From: Bacteroidales bacterium
Lineage (GTDB): Bacteria; Bacteroidota; Bacteroidia; Bacteroidales; Muribaculaceae
DNA length: 54,613 bases
Reading direction: 5' to 3'
Assembly: GCA_014800785.1 (NCBI GenBank)
Contig: JAAVFK010000043.1
Location: forward strand, 1 to 54,613
The stretch's first letter is position 1, and each line of letters starts with the position of its first letter. The translations under genes were made by a program, and so were the position numbers. Of this stretch, positions 22,633 to 41,763 are shown piece by piece. Below the pieces are notes generated by a model, which searched no databases, was not told the DNA's origin, and was given only the letters and a program-made list of their open reading frames with translations.

Positions 22633-22648
22633 CCCCCGCGACCCCCCC

Positions 22649-22688: not shown

Positions 22689-22757
22689 CCCCAAACCACT
22701 TATAACCAAGCCCCAACATAACCCCACTCCAATCCAATATAACCCCAACCCCATACA

Positions 22758-22794
22758 AAACGAGAAACGCCCCAGTGGGGCGTTTCTCGTTTTA
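22758..22794. terminator. rho-independent terminator, symmetric
   Basis: A perfect 17-bp stem, aaaacgagaaacgcccc / ggggcgtttctcgtttt, with an agt loop carries A residues on one side and T residues on the other, so it can terminate transcription from either direction. It isolates the upstream GT2 gene from the switch region that follows. Confidence 0.92.
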
Positions 22795-22824: not shown

Positions 22825-22847
22825 ATCTCTTTGTAAGAGATTTGAAA
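22825..22847 (+). repeat. left inverted repeat of putative invertible promoter segment
   Basis: This 23-bp sequence (starting atctctttgtaagagat) is repeated as an exact reverse complement at 22994-23016. Its first part is itself dyad-symmetric: aatctc and gagatt arms flank a 7-bp asymmetric core, tttgtaa. That is the layout of a tyrosine-recombinase crossover site. Confidence 0.75.
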
Positions 22848-22978: not shown

Positions 22979-22986
22979 TAATTTTG
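22979..22986 (+). promoter_or_regulatory. -7 box inside the putative invertible segment, ON orientation
   Basis: TAATTTTG matches TAnnTTTG exactly and sits 7 nt inside the right inverted repeat, facing the recombinase-NusG fusion gene. At the -33 position, TCG at 22956-22958 differs by one base from TTG. Transcription should start at about 22993, at the inner edge of the right repeat. After inversion the box would face away from the operon. Confidence 0.6.
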
Positions 22987-22993
22987 TACTCAA

Positions 22994-23016
22994 TTTCAAA
23001 TCTCTTACAAAGAGAT
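22994..23016 (-). repeat. right inverted repeat of putative invertible promoter segment
   Basis: This is the exact reverse complement of 22825-22847, separated from it by 146 bp of AT-rich DNA. In the present orientation it falls at the very 5' end of the predicted operon transcript, where its internal dyad would form a hairpin. Confidence 0.75.
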
Positions 23017-23086
23017 CCGAAAATTTCAGCCACCAATTTTCGACTTCAAGATTCAGTGCTGAAAACCATAAAATATTGCGAAGTTG

Positions 23087-23122
23087 CCGCTGTCAATCAG
23101 GTAAATACCCACAAGACAGCGG
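23087..23122 (+). promoter_or_regulatory. leader stem-loop upstream of the fusion gene
   Basis: Perfect 8-bp arms, ccgctgtc (23087-23094) and gacagcgg (23115-23122), enclose a 20-nt loop in the 5' leader, 45 nt before the start codon of the NusG-like gene. UpxY proteins are known to act at the leaders of their own operons, so this may be a pause or recruitment element. That role is inferred. Confidence 0.45.
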
Positions 23123-23167
23123 GACTATCTCTATTTTCCCTCAACCGAATTTCATTAAAAATCGTCG

Positions 23168-24613
23168 ATGACTAAAAGCATTGAACTAAAGTCCGTTAGC
23201 ATCGACCGACTTATGGAATATTTCGGATCGAGGGCACAAGAGATGGAACTCACGTCGCCGACCTATGTGAAAGCCGTCGCCGCCTTCCAGGCATATATCA
23301 ACATGACCGGCGCCACCGCCATCACCGAACCCCTCCTTGCCGACTGGTTCGTCAACATGTACCTGCGCGACTTCACATTCAAGACTTCCCTCCACTACTT
23401 CAACATCATATCAGGGCTCTACACCGCCGCCGTTAAAGAAGGGATCGCACAACCATGCGATGCTTTCCGGACCACCAAAGCCAAGATCGCCCGCCTCGGA
23501 GAAACCGGCGACAGCGCAATCGACAAAACCGGCTTCGAACGCTTCAAAAACCTGATGCGCAACGCCGTCAACCAGAACGCAGAAATTGCGCAAGCAACCG
23601 ACCTGCTCCTTCTAACCCTCCTCAACGGCTGTCGCTCCTTAATCGAAACCGCCCTGCTCAAACGCAACGACATCGAGCCCGACGACCGCGAAAAGCAAGC
23701 TATAGCCGACCGCCACGCTTCCGCACGACGTCAATATATCTTCGATCTGAAGCAATCCCTCCTCACCCCCCGCCAACTCTCCGCGGCAATCGACACAGAG
23801 ATCAACACACTCTTCATCCGCAAGAACATTCCTCACCTCGAAAACGCCGACGAAACCGCAACCGCCTACTGGGCCTTCGCCGCACTCCAATGCGGACTCT
23901 CCGGCTCCACGGTAGTCAGCTACCTCGGGAAAGTCCCCAAAGGGATCCCGGCTCTCGGCCTATGCGAGAAAACGGAACTCACGGAAGAAAAACGCCGTCG
24001 GACCACAAAACTCGTAGGCGACATCTTCATCGAGAACCCCCTCAGATGGTACGCACTCAGATTGCGCACCCGAGGCGGCTTCAGCCAATTCATCGAACGG
24101 CTCGATGACCTCCGCAACCAACCCGGCGTCTTCGTCCCCGAAATATTCTATCCCCTCGAAGAAGTAGCGAAACGCATCCGCAAGAAACTCGTCTTCGAGA
24201 CACAGCCGGTACTTCCCGACATCGTCTTCATCAACTGCCGCGTGACGAGCGTCCTCCCCTTTCTCCTCCGCGTCAACGATCTCGCATGGTGCTACACCGT
24301 CACCGGCCGCCCCGGCTCCGACTACGCTGTCATCCCCGACAGCTCTTTCCGCAAATTCCAGGAAGCCATAGGCCACTTCGCCACCTGCTACGTCGAAGAC
24401 AACCCCTCCATCAAAGCACAAGCCGGCGATAGAGTCCGGGTCAACGCAGGCCTCTTCCAAGGCCTCGAGACCACCATCGACAGCATCGCCAACGAAGACG
24501 GCAACAACATCTTCCGCCTCCTCTACCACAGCGACAACGGCATCCGCTGGAACGTCGGCGTCCCGGCACGCACCACAGGCATCCTCGCCGCCGAACAGGT
24601 ATCCCCATTTTGA
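23168..24613 (+). CDS. degenerate tyrosine recombinase fused to NusG/UpxY-like antiterminator
   Basis: This 481-residue protein has two parts. Residues 1-95 look like the SAM-like core-binding domain of Bacteroidetes integrases (SPTYVKAVAAFQAYI, SLHYFNIISGLYTAAVKEGI). Residues 115-255 look like a recombinase catalytic domain: LLTLLNGCRSLIETALLKRNDI keeps the box I Arg (about R156), but the HxxR and LGH region has become TATAYWAF...SYLGKVPKG, and no Tyr nucleophile is evident. From about residue 290, RWYALRLRTRGG opens an NGN domain (LPDIVFINCRV, YAVIPDSSFRKFQEAI), followed by a KOW segment AGDRVRVNAGLFQGLETT (about 418-435). UpxY/NusG-like proteins prevent early termination in their own polysaccharide operon. 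Its position at the operon head behind the switch supports that job. Codon use is GC-rich, like the core. Confidence 0.75.
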   Translation: MTKSIELKSVSIDRLMEYFGSRAQEMELTSPTYVKAVAAFQAYINMTGATAITEPLLADWFVNMYLRDFTFKTSLHYFNIISGLYTAAVKEGIAQPCDAFRTTKAKIARLGETGDSAIDKTGFERFKNLMRNAVNQNAEIAQATDLLLLTLLNGCRSLIETALLKRNDIEPDDREKQAIADRHASARRQYIFDLKQSLLTPRQLSAAIDTEINTLFIRKNIPHLENADETATAYWAFAALQCGLSGSTVVSYLGKVPKGIPALGLCEKTELTEEKRRRTTKLVGDIFIENPLRWYALRLRTRGGFSQFIERLDDLRNQPGVFVPEIFYPLEEVAKRIRKKLVFETQPVLPDIVFINCRVTSVLPFLLRVNDLAWCYTVTGRPGSDYAVIPDSSFRKFQEAIGHFATCYVEDNPSIKAQAGDRVRVNAGLFQGLETTIDSIANEDGNNIFRLLYHSDNGIRWNVGVPARTTGILAAEQVSPF

Positions 24614-25287
24614 AGAACGACCTCAACATAAGGCTTAAGACGCCGACCGACAGCACCCCCCGCACGCTCGACGTGACGGATAAAGAGGCCATGGCCCGAT
24701 ACGTCTCCCACCTCATGCAAGAGGCTGCCGACCTTGGCATCTTCAGCCCCACGCGCCCCACAAAGAGCGATCTCGGTCTCAGACGCAAAGAGAGCCAACT
24801 GCGCACAGACGCAGCCGACGCACTCAGCCGGCTCAAAGCCCACATCGTCCAAGCCGCTCCCGCCGACGCACTCGACGCACTCGAACCCTACGACCTCCTC
24901 CACCGCATAGCCTACGACTCCCCCGCCGACACCGTCTTCACCGACCCCATAGTCCTGAACGCCCTCGACGCAAGGATCAAAGGCAACCAAACGGTCAACG
25001 AATACACCCTCTACGACGCCATAGGCAAGCGTCTCGAAGCCCGCGCCCCCCGCTTCATGAAGCGCCCCCTCGACTGGCACCTCCGCCAGCTCGACCGCTG
25101 GTACCGCGAAGCCCGCGCCATCCTCGACGGCGCCCCCATCCCCCCCGGCCTACCCCCCGCCGACCTCCACCGCCGCCGCCAAATCCTCCTCCGAGCCAAC
25201 CTCTACGCCTACGAAGGCACCGCCGCCCCCACCTTCAAACACCGCCTATCCACCGAACTATCCAGCTTTATGACCAACAAAAGATAG
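24610..25287 (+). CDS. hypothetical protein, partner of the NusG-like fusion
   Basis: I do not recognise this 225-residue protein. It starts with a TTG whose last two bases begin the upstream stop codon (TTGA overlap), so translation is coupled to the fusion gene. It has no signal peptide or membrane segment and is rich in Arg, Ala, Leu and Asp. The middle contains ALEPYDLLHRIAYDSPADTVF and DWHLRQLDRWYREARAIL, which look helical; the C-terminal part is Pro-rich (GAPIPPGLPPADLHRRRQ). Its place directly behind a UpxY-like gene is the position of UpxZ in Bacteroides capsule loci, but I see no convincing sequence similarity to UpxZ. A regulatory partner role is inference. GC-rich; the sequence turns AT-rich immediately after it. 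Confidence 0.65.
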   Translation: MKNDLNIRLKTPTDSTPRTLDVTDKEAMARYVSHLMQEAADLGIFSPTRPTKSDLGLRRKESQLRTDAADALSRLKAHIVQAAPADALDALEPYDLLHRIAYDSPADTVFTDPIVLNALDARIKGNQTVNEYTLYDAIGKRLEARAPRFMKRPLDWHLRQLDRWYREARAILDGAPIPPGLPPADLHRRRQILLRANLYAYEGTAAPTFKHRLSTELSSFMTNKR

Positions 25288-25314: not shown

Positions 25315-26298
25315 ATGGCTCATAATAACAACGTCTTACTCTTAGATCCCTCCATAGGAACAAGCAATGTCGGTGACGAAATCATTATGGAGTGTGCGTT
25401 GGAAGAACTCCGTTCTATTATCGGAGATCGTTTCGTCTATCGTCTTCCAACTCATGTCTCTTCATTCCATTGGTATCAGGTCTGGCGCAACTCTTTGGCC
25501 ATACAAAACTATTCCAATTGCAAATACAAATTTGTATGCGGGTCAAATCTTCTTATGAAAGATATGCTGACCCATTATCCCCAATGGAATCTCAACCTAT
25601 GGAACTGCAAGCCATTTGCTGGAAGTATCTTGCTTGGCGTAGGCGCCAGCGCAGGTGAAAAGACTAACGCATATACCCGACGCCTCTATAACAAATTTCT
25701 GAACCACAATATCGCACACAGTGTCCGGGACCAAAGGTCGAAAGAGTTTCTGGACAGCCTCGGATTCAAGTCAATCAATACCGGATGTGTGACGATGTGG
25801 AAGCTTACGCCGGAGTTCTGCAAAACGATTCCACATGGAAAAGCCTCCCGCGTTGTATTCACCCTCACCGCCCACAATACACCTCTGGAGTCCGATCAGC
25901 AGATGATCGATATTCTCAAACGTAACTACAAGGAAGTTTACTTCTGGGTTCAGGGCGACAAGGATAGGGAATATATTTCCAAGTTCAAAAACATTGACGG
26001 AATTAAGATAATTCCTCCTACAAAACAAGCATACCACGAACTCTTGTCGGAGCCCGATTTAGATTATGTCGGTACGCGACTGCACGCTGGAGTCTACGCA
26101 ATGCGCCACTCGAAGAGAGCGATAATCATTGTCATCGACGAACGTGCTCGTGAGATCAACAAATCGAACAATCTTGTCTGTATGGAACGCGATGCCATCC
26201 GGACAAAGCTGGAGAGTCTGATAAATTCAGAATTCGCAACTGAAATAAGAATGCCCCGGGCCGAGATAGAAGCCTGGAAAGCACAGTTCAAGGCCTAA
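25315..26298 (+). CDS. polysaccharide pyruvyl transferase family protein
   Basis: This 327-residue cytoplasmic protein is expected to add a pyruvyl group from phosphoenolpyruvate to a glycan sugar, or to be a family member with a related transfer role. The N-terminal LLLDPSIGTSNVGDEIIMECALEEL matches the family start (a G-x-x-N-x-G-D pattern). The C-terminal half has VFTLTAHNT, VYFWVQGDKDREYI and the characteristic YVGTRLHAGVYAMRHSKRAIII (about 250-271), corresponding to the S/GTRLHA motif. It is the first structural gene of the glycan operon and marks the change to lower GC. Length fits the family. Confidence 0.85.
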   Translation: MAHNNNVLLLDPSIGTSNVGDEIIMECALEELRSIIGDRFVYRLPTHVSSFHWYQVWRNSLAIQNYSNCKYKFVCGSNLLMKDMLTHYPQWNLNLWNCKPFAGSILLGVGASAGEKTNAYTRRLYNKFLNHNIAHSVRDQRSKEFLDSLGFKSINTGCVTMWKLTPEFCKTIPHGKASRVVFTLTAHNTPLESDQQMIDILKRNYKEVYFWVQGDKDREYISKFKNIDGIKIIPPTKQAYHELLSEPDLDYVGTRLHAGVYAMRHSKRAIIIVIDERAREINKSNNLVCMERDAIRTKLESLINSEFATEIRMPRAEIEAWKAQFKA

Positions 26299-26313
26299 CT
26301 GATCCCTGTCGGT

Positions 26314-27846
26314 TTGACTTCTTCCTCAGGAACTTCCCGCAAACGCGTCCTTAAAAATACGGTATATCTGTATTGCAGGATGTTGTTTCTCATGCTCATC
26401 TCTTTCTATACATCCCGTATAGTTCTTGATGCGCTCGGAAGCGTCGACTACGGTGTCTACAATGTAGTTGGCGGTATAGTCGCTTTGCTGGGTTTCGTAA
26501 ATGCGTCGATGACACAGGCCTCCAACCGTTTCTTCTCCTATGCCATCGGGAAAAACGACGGGCATATGCTCGTAAGGACCTACAGCACCTCCATTTATCT
26601 ACATCTCGCCATCTCGATTGTTGTCGTTGTTCTCGCGGAGACCGCGGGGATATGGTTTTTCAATAACTATATCAATATTCCGGAAGCCTCCGTACCTGCC
26701 GCAAAATGGGTATATCAACTCTCCGTAATAAGCGCATTCATAGGTATAAATAGCGTGCCACAGATGGCTCTCGTGATCTCTCACGAAGATATGCACGTCT
26801 ATGCATATGTCAGTCTTCTTGAAGGAGGGCTGAAGCTCTGTATCGCTTTCCTGCTTCTGATACCGGCTCTCGCAAATCTTAAGGCATACGCCATTATGAC
26901 CTTCGTCCTCTCGGTCATCATTCGCGTCGTCTGGCAGATATATATATCACACAAATACAAAAAATGCCGGTTCAACAAAAAACTGGATCTTGAGATTTTC
27001 CGCAATATATCAGGATTTGTAGGATGGCAGATATTCAGCGGACTCAGCTGGATACTGAGAAATCAGGGTGCAAATTTTGTCCTCAACAACTTTTTCGGTC
27101 CGATACTCAACACGGCCCGGGCTCTTGCGCTTCAGATAAACGGAGGAATCACATCGCTTGTCGGAAACTTTCAGATGGCCTCCAACCCTCAGATGGTGAA
27201 ATATTATGCTGCCGGCCAGATAGACGAGATGAAACGGTTACTGTACCAAAGCTCCCGAATATCGTTTCTGCTCTTGTTTATATTTGCGTTTCCGATTTAC
27301 ATGCAAGCCCGGGAAGCCGTCTACTTTTGGTTGGGCAGGCTGCCGGAATATGCGGTTGTCTTCACCAGACTTATTATCATAGCCACCCTGATCGATTCTC
27401 TCTCAGGAACCCTGCAGCAGGCTGCACAGGCAACAGGGAAAATACGCATATACACCATTGTGGTTACATCCATAATGTTGAGCAATATCTTTCTGGTCTA
27501 CCTCGCTTTTAAATCCGGATTTCCTCCGACTGCGATGATATATGTGGATATGATATTATATCTCACTGTGTTTATCGCCAGACTGCTCATATCCCGCAGA
27601 ATGTACGGGTTGTCCATATACGGGTTCCTCCGAAATGTGACATTCAGGGAAGCGCTCGTAGTTATTCTGACAGGAGCAGTCAGTCTCCCATATCTGAAAT
27701 TATCAGTTGCCTGGCATATTCCATTCTTCATTAATCTGGCAATACTTTTCGGTCTGTCATGCCTGGGATGCTATTTTGTCGGATTATCTGTGAATGAAAG
27801 AAAATCCGTCCTCATATCCGTAAAAAGCAAACTGCATTTAGGATGA
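26314..27846 (+). CDS. Wzx-type oligosaccharide flippase / LPS biosynthesis membrane protein
   Basis: This 510-residue integral membrane protein of the MATE-like flippase superfamily probably moves lipid-linked repeat units across the inner membrane. About 12-14 hydrophobic segments are visible. The N-terminal KNTVYLYCRMLFLMLISFY and SRIVLDALGSVDYGVYNVVGGIVA (about 30-53) are typical of the Bacteroidetes flippase group, and FNNFFGP-like and ALALQINGGI segments follow. No ATG is suitable; a TTG at 26314 gives the usual N-terminus, 15 nt after the upstream stop. Its end overlaps the next gene by four bases. Functionally it pairs with the EpsG-type polymerase farther down. Confidence 0.88.
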   Translation: MTSSSGTSRKRVLKNTVYLYCRMLFLMLISFYTSRIVLDALGSVDYGVYNVVGGIVALLGFVNASMTQASNRFFSYAIGKNDGHMLVRTYSTSIYLHLAISIVVVVLAETAGIWFFNNYINIPEASVPAAKWVYQLSVISAFIGINSVPQMALVISHEDMHVYAYVSLLEGGLKLCIAFLLLIPALANLKAYAIMTFVLSVIIRVVWQIYISHKYKKCRFNKKLDLEIFRNISGFVGWQIFSGLSWILRNQGANFVLNNFFGPILNTARALALQINGGITSLVGNFQMASNPQMVKYYAAGQIDEMKRLLYQSSRISFLLLFIFAFPIYMQAREAVYFWLGRLPEYAVVFTRLIIIATLIDSLSGTLQQAAQATGKIRIYTIVVTSIMLSNIFLVYLAFKSGFPPTAMIYVDMILYLTVFIARLLISRRMYGLSIYGFLRNVTFREALVVILTGAVSLPYLKLSVAWHIPFFINLAILFGLSCLGCYFVGLSVNERKSVLISVKSKLHLG

Positions 27847-29132
27847 AAATCAAGGAGAACATTATTCTTAAGGAGATAGTCCGGGAGGGAAACACCGTGA
27901 GGTACAGGTTCGAGGTGTCCGTAGCCATCCGGCCATACTTCACTACAAACGAAATGTTTGTCTCGTATGATGACGGTATTGATCTCTCTGAAATACCGGA
28001 TAGCATTCTCGCAATTCCATTCGTAGGATCAGTAATTGCACTTTCCTGGCTTATCGACGCCGTCCTTTGGGTAAAGGATATCGATGATACATTTTATAAA
28101 TCAGCTAGAAATCTAAAACTTGCTTATAGCGAACTCTATCCCCATTATAAATTCGGAGGGCGTTTTGTAGCAGCCAACAGACATTTCAACACAATCTCCG
28201 GGAATCGTAGCCATGAGTCTGAGGCACTCCTCCTTTTCAGCGGTGGTATAGATGCCCATACATCATATATTAGGAATATAGGAAAGAAGCCCCTTCTATG
28301 CAATATCCAGGGATGGCTTAAGGATCCTGAGTCCGAGTCGAAAGCGCAGAAATCAGACTTTCACGATATCCATGAATTTGCGAGGAGGGAAGGCTGTGGG
28401 GAGGCACTTATTAAATCCAATTTCGCAACAGTAGTTGACGGCCGATACTTTTCTAAATCCTTAGGAAAAAAAATCGGTGATTCATGGTGGCATGGTTTCC
28501 AACATTCCATGTCTTTCATCTCCATAGCCATCCCGGTCGCCTATCAGTACGGCATAGCCGAAATTCTGATAGCCAGTTCACACTCGATCGGCAGCAAGGG
28601 GATATGCGCTTCATATCCGACAACGGACACCGAGTTCAGATTTGCCACACGGGGCTATACGGTCCACGATGCTTTCGAAATGACAAGACAGGATAAGGTC
28701 GCCTTCATTGTTGATTTCCAGAAACGCTCCGACAAACCCTATCCTATACGGGTATGCTCCTTCAACGACCACAATTGCGGAGTATGTGTCAAATGCTTCA
28801 GGACTATCCTGGAAATTATTTCGGAAGGTGGTGATATTGCTGATTTCGGTTTCTATAAACCTGAGAACATGAGGGAGTATTACGATAAATACATCCGCTC
28901 TCACTATATAGAATTCGGCATCAACCGTGAGGCACTCCTTTTCTGGCCGGAAATTAAACGGCGCATTAAAGAGAACTACAATACCATTGAGGAGAAGGAT
29001 TTCGTGGATTGGTTCAACAGTGTGGATTTCGTTGCCGAAAGGAAGAAAGCGGTTCTTAAATACCGAATACGGAATTTTTTCCCATTGCTTAGAAAAAAAC
29101 TGATGGGATCGGACTCTGAGGCCCAAAGATAA
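27843..29132 (+). CDS. PP-loop (QueC-like) protein in the glycan operon
   Basis: This 429-residue protein has the ATP-pyrophosphatase loop LLFSGGIDAHTSY (SGGID at about 133-137) and a late Cys cluster CGVCVKC (C312, C315, C318) in a setting like the zinc site of QueC. PP-loop enzymes adenylate a carboxyl or carbonyl group before amination or sulfur transfer. The N-terminal 100 residues do not resemble QueC. It overlaps the flippase gene by four bases, so it is part of the operon; a role in making an amidated or otherwise modified sugar is plausible, as with the WbpG/PseA sugar amidotransferases, but the sequence is not obviously that family. Alternative: a dedicated 7-deazapurine-like or peptide modification enzyme. 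Function open. Confidence 0.65.
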   Translation: MKIKENIILKEIVREGNTVRYRFEVSVAIRPYFTTNEMFVSYDDGIDLSEIPDSILAIPFVGSVIALSWLIDAVLWVKDIDDTFYKSARNLKLAYSELYPHYKFGGRFVAANRHFNTISGNRSHESEALLLFSGGIDAHTSYIRNIGKKPLLCNIQGWLKDPESESKAQKSDFHDIHEFARREGCGEALIKSNFATVVDGRYFSKSLGKKIGDSWWHGFQHSMSFISIAIPVAYQYGIAEILIASSHSIGSKGICASYPTTDTEFRFATRGYTVHDAFEMTRQDKVAFIVDFQKRSDKPYPIRVCSFNDHNCGVCVKCFRTILEIISEGGDIADFGFYKPENMREYYDKYIRSHYIEFGINREALLFWPEIKRRIKENYNTIEEKDFVDWFNSVDFVAERKKAVLKYRIRNFFPLLRKKLMGSDSEAQR

Positions 29133-29154
29133 TTACTAAAGATAATTACTTCTG

Positions 29155-30357
29155 ATGTCAAAGCCAAGCATTATCATTCTGATGCACTACCTCGAGTTAG
29201 GGGGTGCGGAGATGGCGTTGATCGGACTTTTGAGTGCGCTCGACCCCGAGAAGGTAGATGTTGATTTGTTCATCTATGACCATCGCGGACCACTAATGAG
29301 ATTCATTCCCGAACATATCAATCTGCTTCCCGAAAAACGAGACTACTCAGTTATCGAACGTCCGTTATCTGAGGCATTAAAAAAGGGATGTTTTGGTACT
29401 GTAATGGGTAGGTTATTAAGTAAGATCGCATATAAGAGATGTTTCAGGTCTCATCATTCTCATGAGGATGATATTTCTTATTATGATTATCTCGGAAGGT
29501 TTGTAACTCCGTTTCTACATAAAATAAGTCCCGGGAAGAACTATGATCTTGCCATTAGTTTTTTAATTCCTCACCAGATCACTCGAGCAAAAGTAAATGC
29601 AAAGAAGTATTTGGCCTGGATTCATACGGATTATTCAACCGTTCAGATAAATCCCGTTGCCGAGCTGAAAACTTGGAACAGCTATGATCATATAGCCTCA
29701 ATTTCCCGGGAGGTAGCAAAATCTTTTCTGACTGTGTTCCCGAGTTTAAAAGACAAGGTTGTTCCCATTGAAAATATACTTCCCGTATCTTATATCAAGA
29801 AAAGGGCAGATGAAAAAGATGTATCCAATGAAATGCCGGCAGATCTTAAATTGCTCTCTATCGGAAGATTCACAAATGCAAAAAACTTTGATAATGTGCC
29901 GTCGATTGCCTCGGAGTTAAAAAAACATGGCATAATCAATTTTCAATGGTATATAATAGGATTTGGCGCTGACGAAGAATTGATACGAAGAAAGATCGCT
30001 GAAGCCAATGTGAAGGACAAAGTGATAATCCTCGGCAAGAAAGAAAATCCATACCCCTATATAAAGGCCTGCGATATCTATATTCAGCCATCCCGATATG
30101 AAGGGAAGTCTATTACGGTAAGAGAAGCCCAGGTACTCGGTAAACCGGTTGCTATCACAAACTATCCTACAGCTAAGTCTCAAGTGATTAATGGAAAGGA
30201 TGGTGTGATAGTTCCCATGGCAAATGAAGAATGTGCGGCCGGAATTGCGAAATTTATACTGGATTCGGCCACTCAAAACAACATAAAGAACTATCTTCAA
30301 AGCCATAACTTCGGAAACGAAGAAGAGGTGTCTAAAATATACGATCTTATTAAATGA
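29155..30357 (+). CDS. family 4 glycosyltransferase
   Basis: This 400-residue GT-B fold protein has N-terminal LMHYLELGGAEMALIGLLSAL, typical of retaining GT4 enzymes, a central AWIHTDYST, and the donor-binding domain with LLSIGRFTNAKNFDNVPSIA and the C-terminal IQPSRYEGKSITVREAQVLGKPVAITNYP (about 318-346), whose ExxxxxxxE pair is the nucleotide-sugar signature. It is cytoplasmic or membrane-associated and adds one sugar to the lipid-linked repeat. It is more AT-rich than the flippase. Its end overlaps the acyltransferase gene by four bases (ATGA). Confidence 0.9.
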   Translation: MSKPSIIILMHYLELGGAEMALIGLLSALDPEKVDVDLFIYDHRGPLMRFIPEHINLLPEKRDYSVIERPLSEALKKGCFGTVMGRLLSKIAYKRCFRSHHSHEDDISYYDYLGRFVTPFLHKISPGKNYDLAISFLIPHQITRAKVNAKKYLAWIHTDYSTVQINPVAELKTWNSYDHIASISREVAKSFLTVFPSLKDKVVPIENILPVSYIKKRADEKDVSNEMPADLKLLSIGRFTNAKNFDNVPSIASELKKHGIINFQWYIIGFGADEELIRRKIAEANVKDKVIILGKKENPYPYIKACDIYIQPSRYEGKSITVREAQVLGKPVAITNYPTAKSQVINGKDGVIVPMANEECAAGIAKFILDSATQNNIKNYLQSHNFGNEEEVSKIYDLIK

Positions 30358-30893
30358 GATTTTACCTCTTGATCCTATATAATTTCATCTTCTTGATGGT
30401 TCGAAAACTTCGCTATGGTTCGAGATATCAATCATCCTTTATTGAACGTCTCTCTCCGGCATCTTCAATTCGTCTTATCGGGAAGAGTAAGATAAAACTC
30501 GGCTACAACATTGATATAGCTCCGCATACAAGGATTGAAGCCCTGCATGGAGGGGATATCTTTATAGGCGATCGCACCTATATCAATCGTGATTGCATTA
30601 TTAGTTGTCATAAATCGGTACATATTGGCAAAAATTGTATGTTCGGTCCGGGTGTGAGAATCTATGACAATAATCACAAATTCTCTAAAGATGAAGGGGT
30701 TTCGTCAAAGTTGAAAACAGGCAGCATTTCTATCGGTGATAACTGTTGGATAGCAAGTAACGCAATTATCCTCAAAGGGGCTGATATTGGAAATAATTGC
30801 ATAATTGGTGCGGGGTGCATCATAGATTACAAAATACCGGATGGCTCATTGGTTCGTCTGAAGCAACAACACTCCGTTGAACAATTAAGATGA
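30354..30893 (+). CDS. hexapeptide-repeat acyltransferase (LbH fold)
   Basis: This 179-residue protein has a short hydrophobic start (LLILYNFIFLMV), then left-handed beta-helix hexads: IRLIGKSKIKLGYNIDIAP, GGDIFIGDRTYINRDC, HIGKNCMFGPGVRIYDNNH and a second run ISIGDNCWIASNAIILKGADIGNNCIIGAGCI. The NNH motif with His (about residue 105) fits the catalytic base of maltose O-acetyltransferase/WcaF-like acetyltransferases. It probably O-acetylates a sugar of the repeat unit. It overlaps both neighbours by four bases, which indicates tight translational coupling. Confidence 0.88.
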   Translation: MRFYLLILYNFIFLMVRKLRYGSRYQSSFIERLSPASSIRLIGKSKIKLGYNIDIAPHTRIEALHGGDIFIGDRTYINRDCIISCHKSVHIGKNCMFGPGVRIYDNNHKFSKDEGVSSKLKTGSISIGDNCWIASNAIILKGADIGNNCIIGAGCIIDYKIPDGSLVRLKQQHSVEQLR

Positions 30894-31633
30894 TACCCAA
30901 GAAAATACACTACTGCTGGTTTGGGAGAAATCCGCTGCCGGAAGATGCTCTGAAATGTATCGCTTCATGGCGTAAGTTCTTTCCGGATTACGAAATTATC
31001 GAGTGGAACGAAGATAATTTTGACGTCAATTCAATTCCTTACACCGCACAAGCCTACGCAGCAAAGAAATATGCTTTTGTCAGCGACTACGCACGCTTTA
31101 AGATTCTATACGAGCATGGCGGTTTATATTTCGACACGGATGTGGAGGTGATTCGTTCTTTAGAGCCTCTAATTCAAAGAGGTCCTTTCATGGGCTTCGA
31201 AATTGACCCCGGCTCGAAGAGAACGTTCGGAGCAGTAAATCCCGGTCTCGGATTATGTGCCTTACCGGGTATGTCGATTTATCAGGATGTTATCAGCTAT
31301 TATCACCAATTGAATTTCATAAAACAAGATGGTAGCTACAACATTGAGGATGCCGTTGTTAACATCACTACTCGCGAGTTGATAAAAAGCGGATTGAAGA
31401 ATATCCCGGGAATACAGTGTGTGAAAGACATAACCATTTACCCATCGGATTATTTTAACCCATTTGACGATCTGACCGGTAGATTATGTCTCTCTGAAAA
31501 TACATATACCATTCATTGGTTCTCCAAAACCTGGATGCCCACCTCAACCATCCGTACTAGAATTTCACGATTTGTCCACCGAATCTTTGGAGTTCACTTT
31601 ATGACATCAATTAGAAAACTCTTTAAAATCTGA
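30890..31633 (+). CDS. family 32 glycosyltransferase
   Basis: This 247-residue enzyme of the GT32 (OCH1/TcdB-related) group starts IPKKIHYCWFGRNPLPEDALKCI, the standard GT32 opening, and continues YEIIEWNEDNFDVN. The donor metal motif is LYFDTDVEVIRSL (about 80-92), with the DxD in FDTDVE. The C-terminal IHWFSKTWM segment is also typical. It adds a sugar to the capsule or O-antigen repeat. The start overlaps the acyltransferase stop, and the stop shares a base with the next start codon. Confidence 0.92.
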   Translation: MIPKKIHYCWFGRNPLPEDALKCIASWRKFFPDYEIIEWNEDNFDVNSIPYTAQAYAAKKYAFVSDYARFKILYEHGGLYFDTDVEVIRSLEPLIQRGPFMGFEIDPGSKRTFGAVNPGLGLCALPGMSIYQDVISYYHQLNFIKQDGSYNIEDAVVNITTRELIKSGLKNIPGIQCVKDITIYPSDYFNPFDDLTGRLCLSENTYTIHWFSKTWMPTSTIRTRISRFVHRIFGVHFMTSIRKLFKI

Positions 31634-32721
31634 TGCTTCCTGCACCCTTATACTCTCCAATCTATCTAACGATAGTGACTATCCTGACCATAGCACTATC
31701 CATACGATATAAGAAGTTATCTGATTACGACATCTTACATGGCGTCAATAAAACTTTAATTTTCCAAACAGCGATTCCGATTATAATTGCACTATTTATA
31801 GGCTTCAGGCCTCTGAGTGGCTATTATTTTGGAGACATGTCTAATTATAATATATATTATACCTCTTTATATGGTAAGGAATTTATTTTTTCATGGGACA
31901 AGAAAAACTTCTTATTTGATAATTTTATTGAATGGCTCTCAGCTAATCAATATGAGGTAACTACCTTTTTCGTATATTGCTCCTTCATCTATTTTCTTGG
32001 CACATATATTGGTCTAAGAACGATATTTAATAACAACTCATTATACGCCTTCATATGTTTTCTCGGAGCTTTCTCTACATTCTCCTACGGGACCAATGGT
32101 TTGAAAGCCGGAATGGCAGCCGCAATATTTTATATCGCTCTTTCATATTACAACAAGCCTTTGATATTTGCCTTATTCCTGTGGATAAGTCTTGGATTCC
32201 ACCATTCCATGATACTTCCAATTATCGCGGTAGTCATAACATACTTTTATAGGAATTCAAGGATTTATCTTTTATTCTGGTTTGTTACACTTATAATAGC
32301 CTTTCTGCATATTACATATTTTCAAACTCTACTCGGAGAGATTTCCGAAGAAGGTAATAACTCATATCTCAACAATATTGATACTGACTGGGGTGGCAAA
32401 GGAGGTTTCAGATTAGATTTCATCCTTTATAGTTGCGTACCCATTATTACCGGATACTACTGGTACGTTCGTAGAAATCTCAAGGATAAGTTATACTCCA
32501 TCATTTATAACACCTATATCCTGACAAACGGAGTGTGGATGCTATGTATGTACGCATCCTACACCAATCGCATAGCCTATTTATCCTGGTTCTTATTTCC
32601 TCTTGTGCTTATCTATCCTCTGTTAAAATTCGATCTATTTGAAAGACAAGGAAAGATAGTCAACTATACCGTCTGGGGACAGCTTCTGTTCACACTTGCT
32701 ATGGCATATCTCTATTATTAA
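31633..32721 (+). CDS. EpsG-family membrane protein, probable repeat-unit polymerase
   Basis: This 362-residue polytopic membrane protein has about ten hydrophobic segments. The loop after the third segment reads GDMSNYNIYYTSLYGK, resembling the G-x-D-x-x-x-Y pattern of EpsG/Wzy-like polymerases, and KAGMAAAIFYIALSY and LGFHHSMILPI (about 173-197) match conserved parts of that family, including the paired His. It would polymerise the flipped repeat units in the periplasm, matching the upstream Wzx. It is strongly AT-rich, as polymerase genes often are. The start codon overlaps the previous stop by one base. Confidence 0.85.
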   Translation: MLPAPLYSPIYLTIVTILTIALSIRYKKLSDYDILHGVNKTLIFQTAIPIIIALFIGFRPLSGYYFGDMSNYNIYYTSLYGKEFIFSWDKKNFLFDNFIEWLSANQYEVTTFFVYCSFIYFLGTYIGLRTIFNNNSLYAFICFLGAFSTFSYGTNGLKAGMAAAIFYIALSYYNKPLIFALFLWISLGFHHSMILPIIAVVITYFYRNSRIYLLFWFVTLIIAFLHITYFQTLLGEISEEGNNSYLNNIDTDWGGKGGFRLDFILYSCVPIITGYYWYVRRNLKDKLYSIIYNTYILTNGVWMLCMYASYTNRIAYLSWFLFPLVLIYPLLKFDLFERQGKIVNYTVWGQLLFTLAMAYLYY

Positions 32722-32729
32722 CAATACTT

Positions 32730-33632
32730 ATGGCTAAGACTCTTACTATCTTTACTCCAGCGTACAATCGAGCACATACTATTGGCAGGACGTACGAAAG
32801 TCTGCTACGTCAGACCTGCAATGACTTTGAATGGTTGGTGGTTGATGACGGATCATCCGACAATACCGAAGAGCTTGTTCGTGGATGGATCGCAGAGAAT
32901 AAAATTCCTATTCGGTACATAAAACAGAAGAATCAGGGAATGCATGGAGCTCACAACACGGCCTACCATAACATCACGACCGAACTGAATACATGCATCG
33001 ACTCCGACGACTATATGCCGGACGATGCCGTAGAAAAGATTGTCAGGCTTTGGAAAGAAAAGGGGTCTGATAAATATGGGGGGATAATAGGCCTTGATTG
33101 TACCGAGGACGGAAAGATAATCGGTACTGCTTTCCCTGAGTATCTTAAAGAAACTACCCTTACAGGTGTGTATGCTGCCGGGGGAACAGGTGACAAGAAA
33201 CAGGTTTATCGGACTGATGTGATAAACAGCTATCCGGATTATCCGATTTTCGAGGGCGAGAAATATGTCGGGCTTGCCTATAAGTACATTCTTTTGGATC
33301 AAGACTACAAGTTACTGACCATAAATTCGCCTCTTGTGGTGGTAGACTATCAACAGGATGGTTCCAGCTACAATATGTACAAACAGTATTGGAACAACCC
33401 CAAGGGATTCTCTTTTTTCAGAAAAACTGAAATGGTTTATGCTCCGACTCTCAAACGTAAATTCATATCCTGCGTACACTATGTGGCAAGTTCAATCATA
33501 TCCAAAGACAGAAATTTTCTGAAAGAATCCCCCAAGAAATTTTTGACAGCTCTGGCAATTCCCTTTGGAATAGCATGGTATTACAGGATCAAGTCTAAAG
33601 TAGAATCAGGCGCAAAGATGAATTTCAGATGA
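32730..33632 (+). CDS. family 2 glycosyltransferase
   Basis: This 300-residue GT2 enzyme starts TIFTPAYNRAHTIGRTYESLLRQT and WLVVDDGSSDNTEELV. Its DxD-like site is NTCIDSDDYMPDDAV (about 90-104). The C-terminal third has VVVDYQQDGSSYNMY (about 206-220), which recurs in GT2 proteins of Bacteroidetes glycan loci. It adds one sugar to the growing repeat. It begins 8 nt after the polymerase gene. The last codon overlaps the start of a truncated acyltransferase remnant. Confidence 0.92.
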   Translation: MAKTLTIFTPAYNRAHTIGRTYESLLRQTCNDFEWLVVDDGSSDNTEELVRGWIAENKIPIRYIKQKNQGMHGAHNTAYHNITTELNTCIDSDDYMPDDAVEKIVRLWKEKGSDKYGGIIGLDCTEDGKIIGTAFPEYLKETTLTGVYAAGGTGDKKQVYRTDVINSYPDYPIFEGEKYVGLAYKYILLDQDYKLLTINSPLVVVDYQQDGSSYNMYKQYWNNPKGFSFFRKTEMVYAPTLKRKFISCVHYVASSIISKDRNFLKESPKKFLTALAIPFGIAWYYRIKSKVESGAKMNFR

Positions 33633-33795
33633 ACGATATAATTCAGAAAGATCTGTACCGATATGAGGGGGAGAGAAGTAAATTTAGAAAAACTTTTCTC
33701 AGATACTAATTATACTCACTTGTGGGAATCTAACTACTTATCTAGAAGGCTTAAGAGACAAAGAATGAAAGCATCGCTTCTGCGTTTCGAATGAG
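33629..33795 (+). pseudogene. remnant of a serine-acetyltransferase-like O-acetyltransferase
   Basis: An ATG overlapping the upstream stop (ATGA, the operon's usual coupling) begins MNDIIQKDLYRYEGERSKF, which resembles the N-terminus of CysE-like O-acetyltransferases in capsule loci (typically a start such as 'DLYRY.GK'). The frame stops after 26 codons at 33709. The +1 frame stays open to about 33795 (NYTHLWESNYLSRR), as if one frameshift and a truncation had destroyed the gene. The remaining 100 bp to 33894 contain nothing recognisable. Confidence 0.45.
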
Positions 33796-33894
33796 CTGAC
33801 ACTCTGTTCGGAGTCACGAGAATTGAGGATAACATAATGAAGAATTCAACATCTAAATGAATTTTCAATAATTTTAACTTTAAAATTTAAAACA

Positions 33895-34968
33895 ATGAAA
33901 GTATCTTGTATAGTGCCTGTATATAACACCTCTTCATTTTTACATAAGGCGATATCATCTATATTGAAGCAAACATACCAAGATTTTGAAATAATCTTAA
34001 TAAATGACGCCTCAACGGATTATTCAAAAGAAATATGTCTTTTATATTCCGCAACATATCCCGATAAAATAGTCTTCATAGACAAGAAGGTAAACGAAGG
34101 TGTTGATAAAGCAAGATTTACAGGTATTGATTATGTCTTAAAGAACAATCCGGGAGGATCAATTACTTTTCTTGATTCTGATGACTATTTGTCAGAATGT
34201 GCGTTTGAGAAACTTGTAAGTGAGATGAAGAGCTCAAATGCTGATGTAGTCGAAATGAGGTTCAACAGGATTATGGGACCTATTCGAAAGAAAGCAAAGA
34301 TATTAACCCCAGCTCAAAGAATAGCACAACCAGTTTTGTTTGATGATTATTATATCTCCTTTTTTGGTGTTAACAGATTGTCTGTTAATCTATGTGGAAA
34401 ATTATTCAAGACCGATCTTTTCGCCAATAGCGATATACAACCAACGGGGTTTAGGATGGGAGAGGATCTTATGTTAATGATGGAGCTGTTTCCGCAAATT
34501 CAACGCTACTCAGTAATTGATTATTTTGGATATAATTACAGATGGGGTGGCTTGACAAGTGGTTATAATCCATATTTCTGGGATAATTTAGTTACTCAAT
34601 TTTGGTTAAAACGTCAAAAAGCTATTGAAAATAATTATCTGAAGGCAATACCAACTTTGATCATTGAATTGAAGAACGTTCTCTTAACTAATATTTCAAG
34701 TCAAATTATATATCAGAAGAAGTCAGAAGAAGAAATTAAAAAATGGATTTCTTCTCAAATTGGGAATAACCCATTATGGGATGATATTCGAGAAGATCCA
34801 ATAGAAACAAGGGACAAGCGATATAACACTCCAATTTTTAGTGCAATTGCTAGAGGAGATGTAGAGTATATATTTGCTGTTGCCCGAGAAAGGGTTCACC
34901 AAACAAGGCATCGCCGTAAACTCATAGGATTAGTTTATTCTGCTCTAAAGCTAATAAAAGTTTTATGA
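33895..34968 (+). CDS. family 2 glycosyltransferase, AT-rich
   Basis: This 357-residue GT2 enzyme opens SCIVPVYNTSSFLHKAISSILKQT and IILINDASTDYSKEI, and has TFLDSDDYLSE (about 93-103) as its DxD-like site. It is clearly more AT-rich than the genes on either side and is preceded by 262 bp that hold only a gene remnant, so it looks like a separately acquired piece. An AT-rich stretch just before its start may hold a promoter, but no clean TAnnTTTG is seen. Its end overlaps the next gene by four bases, so translation is still coupled downstream. The C-terminal 100 residues are poorly conserved. Confidence 0.9.
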   Translation: MKVSCIVPVYNTSSFLHKAISSILKQTYQDFEIILINDASTDYSKEICLLYSATYPDKIVFIDKKVNEGVDKARFTGIDYVLKNNPGGSITFLDSDDYLSECAFEKLVSEMKSSNADVVEMRFNRIMGPIRKKAKILTPAQRIAQPVLFDDYYISFFGVNRLSVNLCGKLFKTDLFANSDIQPTGFRMGEDLMLMMELFPQIQRYSVIDYFGYNYRWGGLTSGYNPYFWDNLVTQFWLKRQKAIENNYLKAIPTLIIELKNVLLTNISSQIIYQKKSEEEIKKWISSQIGNNPLWDDIREDPIETRDKRYNTPIFSAIARGDVEYIFAVARERVHQTRHRRKLIGLVYSALKLIKVL

Positions 34969-36050
34969 AGATATTACAGGTAATAACATCTCTGCGCACC
35001 GGTGGAGCAGAGAAACTGATGCTCGATTTGATTCCGAGACTCAAGGAGCATGGACTGGAGGTGGACCTTCTGCTTTTCGATGGCACGGACACGCCATTTA
35101 AGCGACAGGCATTGGAGAAGGGAATTAAGATCTACGATCTTGGGATAGGAGGTTCGGTCTATGACCCGAGACGACTGATTAAACTTGCTCAGTTCATGCG
35201 TAAGTATGATATTGTCCATACGCATAATACCGCTCCCCAGATTTTCGCTGCCTTCGACAAGATGTTTGGAAAGGCTAAATTGGTGACTACGGAACACAAC
35301 ACCACAAACAGAAGACGGGATTGGAAAGGATACAAAGTTATTGATTACTGGATGTACAACCGATATTCTACGGTGATATGTATATCGGATCAGGCAGAGG
35401 CTAACCTACGGGAATATCTGAGCGGTAGTACCGCGGATATTCTTACTATCTATAATGGTGTTGATCTCGTGAAATATTCTTCAGCGACATCCTCTAATGA
35501 ACTTGAAAGTTTGGCACCCGGCAGTCGCAAGCTTATCATGGTTGCCGGTTTCCGGGATCAAAAGGATCAAGATACTATTATTCGGGCCCTGCCCCGTTTG
35601 CCTGAGCAGTTTCATCTATTCCTGGTCGGAGACGGCGTCAGAAGAGAGGAGCTAAATAAGCTGGCTACAGATAAAGGAGTCGCAAGGAGGGTTCACTTCT
35701 TAGGCGTGCGCTCGGACGTCCCGGAATTGCTTCACGCTGCCGATTATGTTATTATGTCCTCTCATTTCGAGGGACTTTCGCTGTCATCGGTAGAGGGTAT
35801 GTCGGTCGGCAAGCCATTCATAGCCTCCGATGTTGACGGGCTTAGAGAAGTGGTAAAGGGAGCCGGCATTCTTTGTCCGCATGGGGATGAAAAAGCTCTT
35901 GCCCAAAATATCCTGGATCTGGAGAATGACCATAATTCCTATTTAGAGGTTGCTGACAGATGCGCAATACGGGCTAGCGACTTTGACATCTCCAGAATGG
36001 TCGAGGGATACGTTAACGTTTATAACTCTTTGAATGGGAAAAACCAATAA
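34965..36050 (+). CDS. family 4 glycosyltransferase
   Basis: This 361-residue GT4 enzyme starts LQVITSLRTGGAEKLMLDLIPRL, the nucleotide-sugar-binding opening of the family. Other landmarks are VHTHNTAPQIFA, IYNGVDLVKYSS (about 163-174) and the C-terminal ADYVIMSSHFEGLSLSSVEGMSVGKPFIASD (about 260-290), with the conserved E-x7-E pair. It probably adds a sugar at the cytoplasmic face. It overlaps the previous gene by four bases and the following GT4 gene by 17 bases. Confidence 0.93.
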   Translation: MKILQVITSLRTGGAEKLMLDLIPRLKEHGLEVDLLLFDGTDTPFKRQALEKGIKIYDLGIGGSVYDPRRLIKLAQFMRKYDIVHTHNTAPQIFAAFDKMFGKAKLVTTEHNTTNRRRDWKGYKVIDYWMYNRYSTVICISDQAEANLREYLSGSTADILTIYNGVDLVKYSSATSSNELESLAPGSRKLIMVAGFRDQKDQDTIIRALPRLPEQFHLFLVGDGVRREELNKLATDKGVARRVHFLGVRSDVPELLHAADYVIMSSHFEGLSLSSVEGMSVGKPFIASDVDGLREVVKGAGILCPHGDEKALAQNILDLENDHNSYLEVADRCAIRASDFDISRMVEGYVNVYNSLNGKNQ

Positions 36051-37185
36051 AATACTCAGAACTACTACCGTTCCGGGCTCTCTTAACAATTTCTGTAGGG
36101 GCCTGTTGCGGGAACTCACCGTTGAGGGCTACGAAGTTGTGGCTGTCAGTTCTCCCGGACCGGCAATGGAAGAGATTGCGGAGCGCGAGGGTGTGAGAAC
36201 TATAGCTGTTCCGATGTACCGCGAGATTTCTCCACTCAATGATCTCAAGAGTTTATTGGGTCTGATCAAGGTATTCCGCAAGGAAAAGCCGACAATGGTT
36301 CATTCGATGACTCCGAAGGCCGGATTGCTGTCAATGATGGCAGCGTGGGTGTGTCGTGTGCCGGTCCGTCTACATACCTTTACCGGTCTGGTATTTCCGA
36401 CCTCGACGGGCCTTAAACAGAAAATCCTGATTTTCACCGACCGCCTTACTTGTGCTTGCGCGACACATATCGTTCCGGAAGGTGAGGGTGTGAAGAACGA
36501 TCTGATCAATTACGGCATCACGAAGAAACCTCTGAAAGTATTGGGCTACGGCAATGTACGCGGAATCGACCTAAAGCGGTTCGATCCGGAACTTCCCGAA
36601 GTAAAAGCCGAGGCCGAGAAGATCCGCAAAGATGGCGTATTTACATTCGTATCCATTGGCCGTCTTGTCGGAGACAAGGGTATAAATGAATTGGTCGAGG
36701 CTTTCAAACGGCTCAACGAGAGGTATCCCGACACACGTCTGATTCTTATCGGATCGGAGGAACGGGAACTTGATCCGCTGAGAGACGAAACAATTGCTGA
36801 AATCGAAAATAATTCGGCTATCGAAGCGGTCGGCAGGCAGTCGGATGTCCGTCCCTGGCTTCTCGCCTCCGATACGCTTGTACATCCCAGTTATCGCGAG
36901 GGTTTTCCAAATGTAGTGATAGAAGCCGGAGCAATGGGTCTTCCGTCTATCGTCACTGACATCAACGGTTCACGCGAGATCATCATCGAGGGCGAAAACG
37001 GAACAATAGTTCCTTCAAAGGATATAGCGGCTCTTGAAACGGCCATGGAGAAGTTTATCAAGGAGCGGGAATTAACCAAAGCTATGGCATCCAAAGCCCG
37101 CAATATGGCTGCAAATCGCTTCGAGCAAGGATTCGTACACAAATGCCTGAGAGATTACTATAAGGAAATTATGAGGGTGAATTAA
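36034..37185 (+). CDS. family 4 glycosyltransferase (WcaL/PglA-like group)
   Basis: This 383-residue enzyme has RTTTVPGSLNNFCRGLLREL near the N-terminus, then MVHSMTPKAGLLSMMAA and RLHTFTGLVFPTSTGLKQ, a pattern of the GT4 group that acts early on undecaprenyl-linked sugars. The donor site is in FVSIGRLVGDKGINELVEAF and VHPSYREGFPNVVIEAGAMGLPSIVTD (about 288-314). It starts inside the end of the previous gene (17-base overlap). In many Bacteroidetes loci such an enzyme lies next to the initiating transferase, as here (38917), separated only by the BCCT gene. Confidence 0.92.
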   Translation: MGKTNKILRTTTVPGSLNNFCRGLLRELTVEGYEVVAVSSPGPAMEEIAEREGVRTIAVPMYREISPLNDLKSLLGLIKVFRKEKPTMVHSMTPKAGLLSMMAAWVCRVPVRLHTFTGLVFPTSTGLKQKILIFTDRLTCACATHIVPEGEGVKNDLINYGITKKPLKVLGYGNVRGIDLKRFDPELPEVKAEAEKIRKDGVFTFVSIGRLVGDKGINELVEAFKRLNERYPDTRLILIGSEERELDPLRDETIAEIENNSAIEAVGRQSDVRPWLLASDTLVHPSYREGFPNVVIEAGAMGLPSIVTDINGSREIIIEGENGTIVPSKDIAALETAMEKFIKERELTKAMASKARNMAANRFEQGFVHKCLRDYYKEIMRVN

Positions 37186-37409
37186 ATTTTCACTATCAAA
37201 TTTCATTCACATAATAAAATATTTAAACATGAAACGTGTCCGCGATTAAAGAGACCATCAGTTTAATCGTCATCTTTATCATACGGAATGTAACGCAACT
37301 GACTGAATATTTCTCCGCTTTCCTATCAATGGCGGGGGTCATCCGTACGGGTAGCGCCGACAGAAACTCAAATGGCCCTTGATAAGGAGTGCAAATATCC
37401 ATAATATCC

Positions 37410-38909
37410 ATGTTTCATTCTTCTTATTTCGAGAAATCGTTTATCAGGCGTAAATCAAGCGGAATCACCGCTCTGGCTCTTCTGACCGTGACGATCTTCT
37501 CGCTCGCTGTGTTTCACCCCAAGACAGAGTTCTTCCAGTCTCTGCTTTCGCACATGTGTGTGATTTTCAGAGGACCGGTGACTCTCTTCTGCTTTTTCTG
37601 CATCGCTGTTCTTCTATTCCTGGTGTGCTCCGGGTATGGTAACATCCGACTCGGTGGCGAGAAAGCAAAGCCGGAGTTCAGCACGTTCTCCTGGCTTTCG
37701 TGTCTGTTTATGGCCGGATGTGGAATCGGTATTGTGTTTTATTGTCAGGAGCCTATCCTGCACTATTACAACAACCCTTATGCCGGAAACGTGCCGGGAG
37801 ACCCTGTATCCGTGGCTTATTCCCTCACCTTATTCAACTGGACAATAAACGACTGGGTACAGTTTGCCCTGCTCGGCGTGATCATCGCCTACTTCCATTA
37901 TAACAAGGGGAAGGATCTGAAAATGAGTTCCATTCTGCCGGGGAAGACCCCAATATGGATCAGGCGGAGCGTCGATATAATAATGGCTCTCGGTGTCATT
38001 TCTGGTCTCACAACGTCACTCGGACTCGGAGTGAACCAAATTGGCAAGGGGTTCGAATATGTTTTCGATACATCTATCAGTCCGTTCATTCTGATGTTCC
38101 TGATTGCGGTTGTAGCTGCATGGTCTGTTACATCGGGATTGAAAAAGGGTGTCAAATGGCTTTCCAATATATCGACAGTCATGGTATCTCTTCTCATGAT
38201 ATCGATAGTTTTTATCGGTGTGTTCTATCATGATATATTCAACTTTCTGGGTTATATAGCCAATGGAACCGGGCTGTTGTTCGCAAACTATTTACATTAC
38301 AATGACTTCATGAACGAGGCGTCCGACTCCTGGGCTGCGGCAAATCCAATTTTCTTCAATCTCTGGTTTGCTGCCTGGGCAGCTTTCGTGGCCGTCTTTG
38401 TTGCGAAAATCTCCAAGGGGCGTACCATACGGGAGTTTATAATAGGAGTTGTGGCCTTTCCGACGATATTCACAATACTTTGGTTTGGGGTCTTCGGTTG
38501 TGTCGGAGCAGAATACAGAGAACTCATCTACAAAGCGATGTCAAACGATGTGCCGACTGCATTATTCATCTTCTTTCAGCACATTACCAATAATGGCTAT
38601 TACGTCATCTTATCTTCGGCGGCACTACTCACCATCTGTTTGTTCTTCATTACATCGTCAGATTCGGGGTCCTATGTAGTCGCCACGTTGCTTTCCAAAG
38701 AAAAACATATTTCCTCAAAAGAGAAGATCTTCTGGGCTACCGTACAGTGTCTGGTAGCTATGGCTCTTTATTGGTGCGGGGGACTGGCACTTGTTCAGTC
38801 GGTCTCTGTAATCATGGGGCTTCTCGTAATGATACTGATTCTTATAGGTTCCGTTCTGTTCATTCGTAGACTGATACAAGACTCTCGCATTTCCAAAAAT
38901 AACCAATAA
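37410..38909 (+). CDS. BCCT-family transporter
   Basis: This roughly 499-residue secondary transporter of the betaine/carnitine/choline family has about 12 membrane segments. The glycine-rich motif of helix 3 reads AGCGIGIVFYCQEPILHYYN (about 101-120), matching the GxGIG...EP..H pattern, and the signature helix is FNWTINDWVQFALLGVIIAYFHYNKG (about 138-163). The ATG at 37410 gives a usual N-terminus; a GTG seven codons earlier is possible. BCCT proteins take up quaternary ammonium compounds with sodium or protons. A transporter is out of place in a glycan operon and may import the substrate for the ATP-grasp/PLP genes that follow. It lies after a 224-bp gap and 7 nt before the sugar transferase gene. 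Confidence 0.88.
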   Translation: MFHSSYFEKSFIRRKSSGITALALLTVTIFSLAVFHPKTEFFQSLLSHMCVIFRGPVTLFCFFCIAVLLFLVCSGYGNIRLGGEKAKPEFSTFSWLSCLFMAGCGIGIVFYCQEPILHYYNNPYAGNVPGDPVSVAYSLTLFNWTINDWVQFALLGVIIAYFHYNKGKDLKMSSILPGKTPIWIRRSVDIIMALGVISGLTTSLGLGVNQIGKGFEYVFDTSISPFILMFLIAVVAAWSVTSGLKKGVKWLSNISTVMVSLLMISIVFIGVFYHDIFNFLGYIANGTGLLFANYLHYNDFMNEASDSWAAANPIFFNLWFAAWAAFVAVFVAKISKGRTIREFIIGVVAFPTIFTILWFGVFGCVGAEYRELIYKAMSNDVPTALFIFFQHITNNGYYVILSSAALLTICLFFITSSDSGSYVVATLLSKEKHISSKEKIFWATVQCLVAMALYWCGGLALVQSVSVIMGLLVMILILIGSVLFIRRLIQDSRISKNNQ

Positions 38910-38916
38910 TTAAACC

Positions 38917-39546: not shown

Positions 39547-39562
39547 TCAATAAAGCAAATCA

Positions 39563-40843: not shown

Positions 40844-40848
40844 GATCT

Positions 40849-41757: not shown

Positions 41758-41763
41758 CTACAA

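Follow-up and report, generated by a model that had tools for sequence, protein, structure and literature searches.

The window, the whole stretch of 54,613 nucleotides that was analysed, carries on its forward strand a gene of 481 codons in one frame (23168..24613) whose product joins a tyrosine-recombinase fold to a NusG-type module. In the structure model, a core-binding (SAM-like) domain of tyrosine recombinases occupies residues 10-105 (23195..23482), followed by a tyrosine-recombinase catalytic fold whose catalytic residues are gone at residues 106-288 (23483..24031). The C-terminal part, residues 290-475 by the model and its structural matches, consists of a NusG N-terminal (NGN) domain at residues 290-403 (24035..24376), also seen by profile, and a KOW domain at residues 415-475 (24410..24592), also seen in relatives. 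The preliminary description of this DNA had proposed an inactivated recombinase followed by a NusG/UpxY-like antiterminator, to be checked by structure prediction and profile searches; these found an integrase fold in the N-terminal region and upheld the NGN and KOW assignment. Both the core-binding and the catalytic fold of a tyrosine recombinase are recognised by model and structure comparison, and the SroF structures 9rd5 and 9rgl are structural matches of the fusion model. The catalytic-fold model was clear in the VIA second look, a Foldseek search with it returned nothing at E 0.001 or better (best XerH, 0.22), and a sequence search of solved structures with the fusion gave a best E of 0.21, taken as chance. 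The protein scores 49.2 bits against NCBIfam NF033644 (UpxY) over residues 294-442, where the cut-off is 100 bits, 21.7 bits against Pfam NusG, slightly below the cut-off of 22.2, and 14.2 bits against NCBIfam NF033641 (LoaP), where the cut-off is 125 bits. It is filed as a UpxY-like variant of the specialised-NusG antiterminators that falls outside UpxY proper by the curated cut-off.

The gene is a true single-frame fusion. A frame error joining two genes, or a chimera, is ruled out by recurrence of the whole length in homologs and in family genomes; all 23 homologs listed in a large protein search cover 82-98% of the fusion, not separate halves, and most of the 23 keep the full-length N-domain fold at 24-45% identity. 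The survey for the same fusion elsewhere that the preliminary description had suggested found it complete, counted as one match that starts no later than profile position 60 and reaches at least 430, in at least 63 of 397 same-family genomes, the window's own included. The profile of the fusion alignment matches 219 of the 397 at E 1e-10, in many of them by the N-terminal part only, and these resemble true recombinases. In an order-wide draw of 393 genomes, among them a few family members that lack the gene, no fusion match was found at E 1e-25 beyond the window's own genome. That genome holds a second copy on contig 46. Some fusion-bearing records are named Staphylococcus, Clostridiales, Bacteroides or Alistipes, and such names are read as labels. 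A fusion (L044) is also encoded in the record of a cultured commensal, Duncaniella muris DSM 103720. In a tree of 60 fusions, 12 form a separate branch (SH-aLRT 100), and the other 48, including the window's fusion, constitute the main class.

The loss of the recombinase active site, proposed for this protein, extends across the family. Residues were compared between 48 fusions and 32 intact invertases, 12 of the 60 fusions being left out because their domain was too short or its border escaped automatic detection. The nucleophile Tyr and the Lys are each present in 0/48 fusions, and Arg-I, Arg-II and His are found in 2, 10 and 7 of the 48, respectively; each of the five is present in 32/32 invertases, in which the first place of HxxR is Tyr, not His. 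The window's fusion has none of the five (Arg, Lys, Arg, His, Tyr). An active recombinase-antiterminator is thus ruled out by the residue counts, with Tyr in none of the 48 fusions compared. A structural Trp is retained in all 48. The catalytic fold has a median charge of +2 in fusions versus +11 in invertases, over spans that are not quite equal; the core-binding domain of the window's fusion has a charge of -1, and the NGN domain is the basic part of the fusions (median +6). The lowered positive charge counts against simple binding of double-stranded DNA by the dead domain. The N-domain is homologous to invertases of a family found beside the crossover-type sites described below, a kinship that suggests a nucleic-acid-reading role. 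A quick tree of 25 of the 48 usable fusions, in which the root is not fixed and several branches are long, groups the fusion N-domains in a single clade (SH-aLRT 100). The 32 invertases and 6 further recombinases included in it (L027 recurs in a seventh row) fall outside that clade. An origin of the N-domain within the invertases beside core sites was rejected, since this tree sets the fusion clade apart. At one locus (L130, 121-1464 and 1841-3016), a highly divergent ORF with dead-recombinase and NusG parts lies next to an invertase and a pair of core sites; this ORF is cut by the locus end, and its dead domain still has an invertase-like HGW.

The fusion is the first gene of a polysaccharide gene cluster, as is typical of UpxY-type genes, and the glycan locus named in the preliminary description is borne out. 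The second gene (24610..25287, forward strand) encodes 225 amino acids, occupies the position of UpxZ and has no Pfam or NCBIfam match; it is homologous (25% identity, E 5e-10) to the second gene at the contig 46 fusion locus. At 42 of the 60 fusion loci a second ORF could be obtained, and 9 of the 42 belong to the family of the window's second gene. All nine lie at crossover-core loci versus 6/33 of the other second ORFs, one of the nine (L108) having a single core site with two mismatches. The co-directional genes that follow (25315..42789, forward strand) encode a pyruvyl transferase, a MatE flippase, glycosyltransferases, an EpsG-type polymerase, a sugar transferase and ATP-grasp enzymes, and likely form a single operon. 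A gene for a BCCT-type transporter lies amid the glycan genes (37389-38909). Directly after them, RdrA-like and RdrB-like genes (43205-48906) make up a RADAR-type defence pair, and an FRG-domain protein that weakly matches candidate defence families is encoded at 50599-52485.

The DNA upstream of the fusion has the form of an invertible promoter. A perfect hairpin of 18 bp, with T/A runs at either end (22757..22793), found by inverted-repeat scan and not listed by the terminator pattern scan, is likely a terminator insulating the upstream gene. It is followed by a left crossover-type site (22825..22841, forward strand; core ATCTCTT-TGT-AAGAGAT) inside a 23-bp palindrome (22822-22844), and by a right site found by repeat and core search (23000..23016; core ATCTCTT-ACA-AAGAGAT) that is inverted relative to the left. 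Both repeat arms are palindromes in their own right, ATCTCTT-nnn-AAGAGAT, with an asymmetric centre in opposite orientation in the two arms, as expected of tyrosine-recombinase crossover sites; the crossover-like inverted repeats noted earlier are accordingly a palindromic site pair in inverted orientation. The promoter box consensus of Bacteroidales at -7 is TAnnTTTG. The sequence TAATTTTG (22979..22986, forward strand) matches it and faces the fusion gene (ON here), which places a promoter, as judged by consensus, between inverted recombination sites, the arrangement of an inverton. A -7 box at a fixed distance in the segment, on one strand only, is present at 12 of 17 site-pair loci (1000 shuffles, maximum 3), the distance being 26-33 nt from the inner half-site end, a window chosen after a first look. 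Of these 12 segments, 8 face the gene and 4 face away, never both. The window is in the ON state and the contig 46 copy is OFF. Opposite promoter orientations are also seen between two related genomes (L111 and L112), whose segments are identical at 138/184 positions when reversed, with no forward match beyond 15 nt; the flanks keep their orientation (right 129/137, left 220/305 identical). No report of inversion in Muribaculaceae was found in searches of one open-licence library of papers.

The crossover sites do not coincide with the fusion throughout the family. The core ATCTCTTnnnAAGAGAT occurs exactly in 100 of 297 family genomes (one row in the reversed-pattern control), and paired CTCTTnnnAAGAG sites, the inner core, lie in the window's own genome only 5' of its two fusion genes. 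At two mismatches, the core is found in front of 18 of the 56 fusions with 350 nt or more of upstream DNA, versus 6 of 565 same-locus control windows. Among the 48 main-class loci, 17 have a site pair and 31 have none, and core sites also adjoin non-fusion genes, namely short NusG-type genes (L117, L121, L122, L137) and a DUF3575 gene (L123). The core sites as a universal target of the fusion were therefore rejected. No second palindrome common to the fusion loci without core sites was seen by eye. A single invertase of the matching family, with catalytic residues present, is found in the window's genome, on contig 35 in a stretch with ambiguous bases. An invertase lies just upstream at only 2 of the 51 fusion loci with enough upstream DNA, so flipping presumably occurs in trans, by an enzyme assigned here by family.

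A second upstream feature is a conserved structured leader element (23070..23140, forward strand; main stem 23087-23094/23115-23122), recognised by covariation and a covariance model. The hairpin lies approximately 40-80 nt before the start codon, and its stems vary while the surrounding bases are constant. In 20 leaders, 11 of 14 pairs changed on both sides, and pairing stood at 72% versus 44-54% in slid controls. The paired share and the covariation score were reached by 0/500 shuffles, the number of pairs with two-sided change by 2/500 and the pair types by 5/500. The inner stem carries the covariation; each of the six outer pairs fails in 8-13 of the 20 leaders. A structure count from a 30-row leader alignment was set aside, as the alignment was fitted to the model and three of its rows, two from L061 and one antisense from L115, are not sense-strand fusion leaders. 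With a threshold of E 0.05, the covariance model matches 26 of the 60 fusion loci, 20 of these being its training set and 6 lying outside it, and finds no element at 22 of 48 main-class loci or at any of the 12 second-class loci. In L108 and L109 the match falls after the script-assigned start codon, which is thus probably placed too far upstream. In the window's own genome, with 150 of 256 first-look candidates scored, the model matches the leaders of both fusions and nothing else, one of the two being outside training. Across 247 genomes, 21 of 23 matches lie directly 5' of a fusion (7 of 9 among matches outside training). The hairpin was found at 0/34 UpxY-type loci without a fusion (30 high-scoring NF033644 loci of 99 genomes and 4 site-bearing short-NusG-type loci), of which 33 are informative since L224 has only approximately 40 nt upstream. 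In the main class, the element occurs with a site pair at 12 loci and without one at 14 (Fisher p 0.13), indicating that the leader follows the protein and not the switch. No clear co-divergence of the leader with either half of the protein was seen (Mantel p 0.18 against the N-domain and 0.23 against NGN). Rfam gave seven matches in window positions 22600-23400, all under the gathering score, and none on the hairpin (23087-23122) except one that spans the repeat arms upstream of it. No intrinsic terminator was found in the leader; a scan of 22600-25400 gave five terminator-like sites, all on the reverse strand (shuffles, 4.1).

The two classes differ in their surroundings. Among judgeable main-class loci, 38 of 43 are followed by a same-strand ORF, and the following ORF is on the opposite strand in 8 of 11 loci of the second class (for example, L074 5871-7341, L083 5820-7341, L080 3919-5461 and L084 5829-7296). 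The full-length N-domain fold is kept in both, and the second-class loci also have no core site at two mismatches. By analogy with RfaH, the orphan fusions among them may act in trans. Several second-class fusions have a promoter-like box near the start codon. At a further locus (L236 284-1983, genome G271), the fusion is broken within NGN into two ORFs of 405 and 161 amino acids with overlapping stop and start, representing either a split protein or a frame break, and a 215-amino-acid ORF follows in the UpxZ position.

Taken together, the fusion, a dead recombinase fold joined to NGN-KOW, is probably an antiterminator dedicated to the polysaccharide operon at whose head it appears to stand, and is predicted to load onto RNA polymerase at its own leader hairpin. 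A promoter between the two inverted 17-bp sites would be flipped by a matching-family invertase whose gene lies elsewhere in the genome, in which case the fusion and the operon would be made in the ON state only. The sites and their orientation are observed in the DNA; that the segment flips in the source strain, and that the contig 35 enzyme is responsible, is presumed. Once the gene is transcribed, the hairpin in its leader (about +75 to +145) would bring in the fusion, and NGN would then ride RNA polymerase through the long operon, by analogy with RfaH, LoaP and UpxY. The second gene, from its UpxZ position, may silence competing loci. In the least certain step of this scheme, the dead recombinase domain would most likely supply or refine the choice of target by contacting the leader, as folded RNA or as non-template DNA. 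Integron integrases recognise a folded site, attC. A more specific form of this step is put forward only tentatively: the dead fold could be the reading head of the antiterminator, recognising the folded leader hairpin in the nascent RNA or the non-template strand and loading the fused NusG module onto polymerase.

The preliminary description had instead suggested that the recombinase-derived domain tethers the antiterminator to the upstream repeats. In such a case, the dead domain would bind the crossover sites as double-stranded DNA near the transcription start, and would either hand NGN-KOW to the passing polymerase or block inversion while the promoter is ON. The N-domain is homologous to invertases found beside such sites, the right site sits just past the -7 box, and dead recombinase folds can bind specific DNA, as in SroF and MrpR (PMC10516654). 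Nevertheless, the absence of a site pair at 31/48 main-class loci, the use of the same sites by non-fusion genes, the lowered positive charge of the dead domain and the separate clade formed by the 25 fusion domains tested all weaken the tether, and the fusion goes with the leader hairpin (26/60 loci versus 0/34). Binding to the sites is therefore unlikely, and since the sites do not track the fusion, a leader-loaded antiterminator with flipping in trans is preferred over a repeat tether.

The main rival to a leader-contacting domain is a role in protein contact or autoinhibition, in which the dead domain pairs with an invertase or masks NGN until loading, in the manner of the RfaH C-terminal domain, and NGN alone reads the leader. 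This is a genuine possibility, if short of a probable one. In its favour, fold and core packing persist (Trp in 48/48) despite the loss of catalytic and basic residues, the basic part of the protein is NGN, and UpxY, LoaP and RfaH function without such a domain (PMC7819879 and PMC12691694). Against it, the leader is absent from all 34 UpxY-type loci without a fusion, indicating that something in the fusion type is tied to the leader. It is very improbable that the N-domain is a decaying remnant, left by an invertase once upstream of upxY and fused by chance, with no present role. An invertase, a site pair and a short NusG-type gene do adjoin in L121 and L122, and the same gene order is described in Bacteroidales (PMC12118408). 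However, a domain without function should disappear with time, and the full-length fold is kept at 24-45% identity in most of the 23 homologs and in both classes; three loci (L064, L065 and L067) do have a shortened one.

The fusion can be compared with several known systems. UpxY of Bacteroides capsule operons shares the NGN-KOW module, the position at the head of a polysaccharide cluster behind an invertible promoter and the small gene in the UpxZ position, and acts within its own leader (PMC7819879 and PMC7315117). UpxY proteins are approximately 200 amino acids, whereas the fusion has 481, carries the N-terminal dead recombinase and scores under the NCBIfam UpxY cut-off; the leader hairpin found with 26/60 fusions was likewise not found at the 34 UpxY-type loci without one. 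LoaP of the Bacillus difficidin operon is a specialised NusG paralog with a hairpin in its leader, which is of the UNCG type and differs from that of the fusion; LoaP is not known to have a recombinase domain and comes from a different phylum. LoaP antitermination needs its leader hairpin (PMC12691694). MrpR and SroF, repressors of SPbeta-type phages, are tyrosine-recombinase folds serving as transcription regulators, but stand alone without a NusG module. According to PMC10516654 (including its Table 3), MrpR shows no recombinase activity and keeps the Lys and Tyr, neither of which is present in the fusion. The tyrosine invertases of Bacteroidales beside invertible promoters have homologous core-binding and catalytic folds and the same kind of palindromic repeat pair around the promoter. 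Unlike them, the fusion has lost the catalytic residues and begins at the core-binding domain, without the arm-binding domain (Arm-DNA-bind_5). An invertase or integrase, a palindromic repeat pair, a UpxY/NusG gene and UpxZ are described at capsule loci of Bacteroides and Parabacteroides (PMC12118408).

Finally, a recombinase fold without recombinase activity acting as a regulator is already known (PMC10516654). As far as the searches go, three things are new: the fusion itself, the loss of its catalytic residues throughout a family, and the leader element. No description of a recombinase-NusG fusion came up in searches of one open-licence library of papers. To our knowledge, the way in which a UpxY-type antiterminator recognises the capsule operon it belongs to is an open question in the phase variation of Bacteroidales. 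The fusion family offers a handle on this question, with a covarying leader tied to one protein architecture in a capsule-type switch with a flippable promoter, and a dead recombinase added as a fused part of an elongation factor. If the dead fold is indeed the reading head of the antiterminator, the inversion enzyme and the elongation factor of the same capsule switch would have merged into one regulator.
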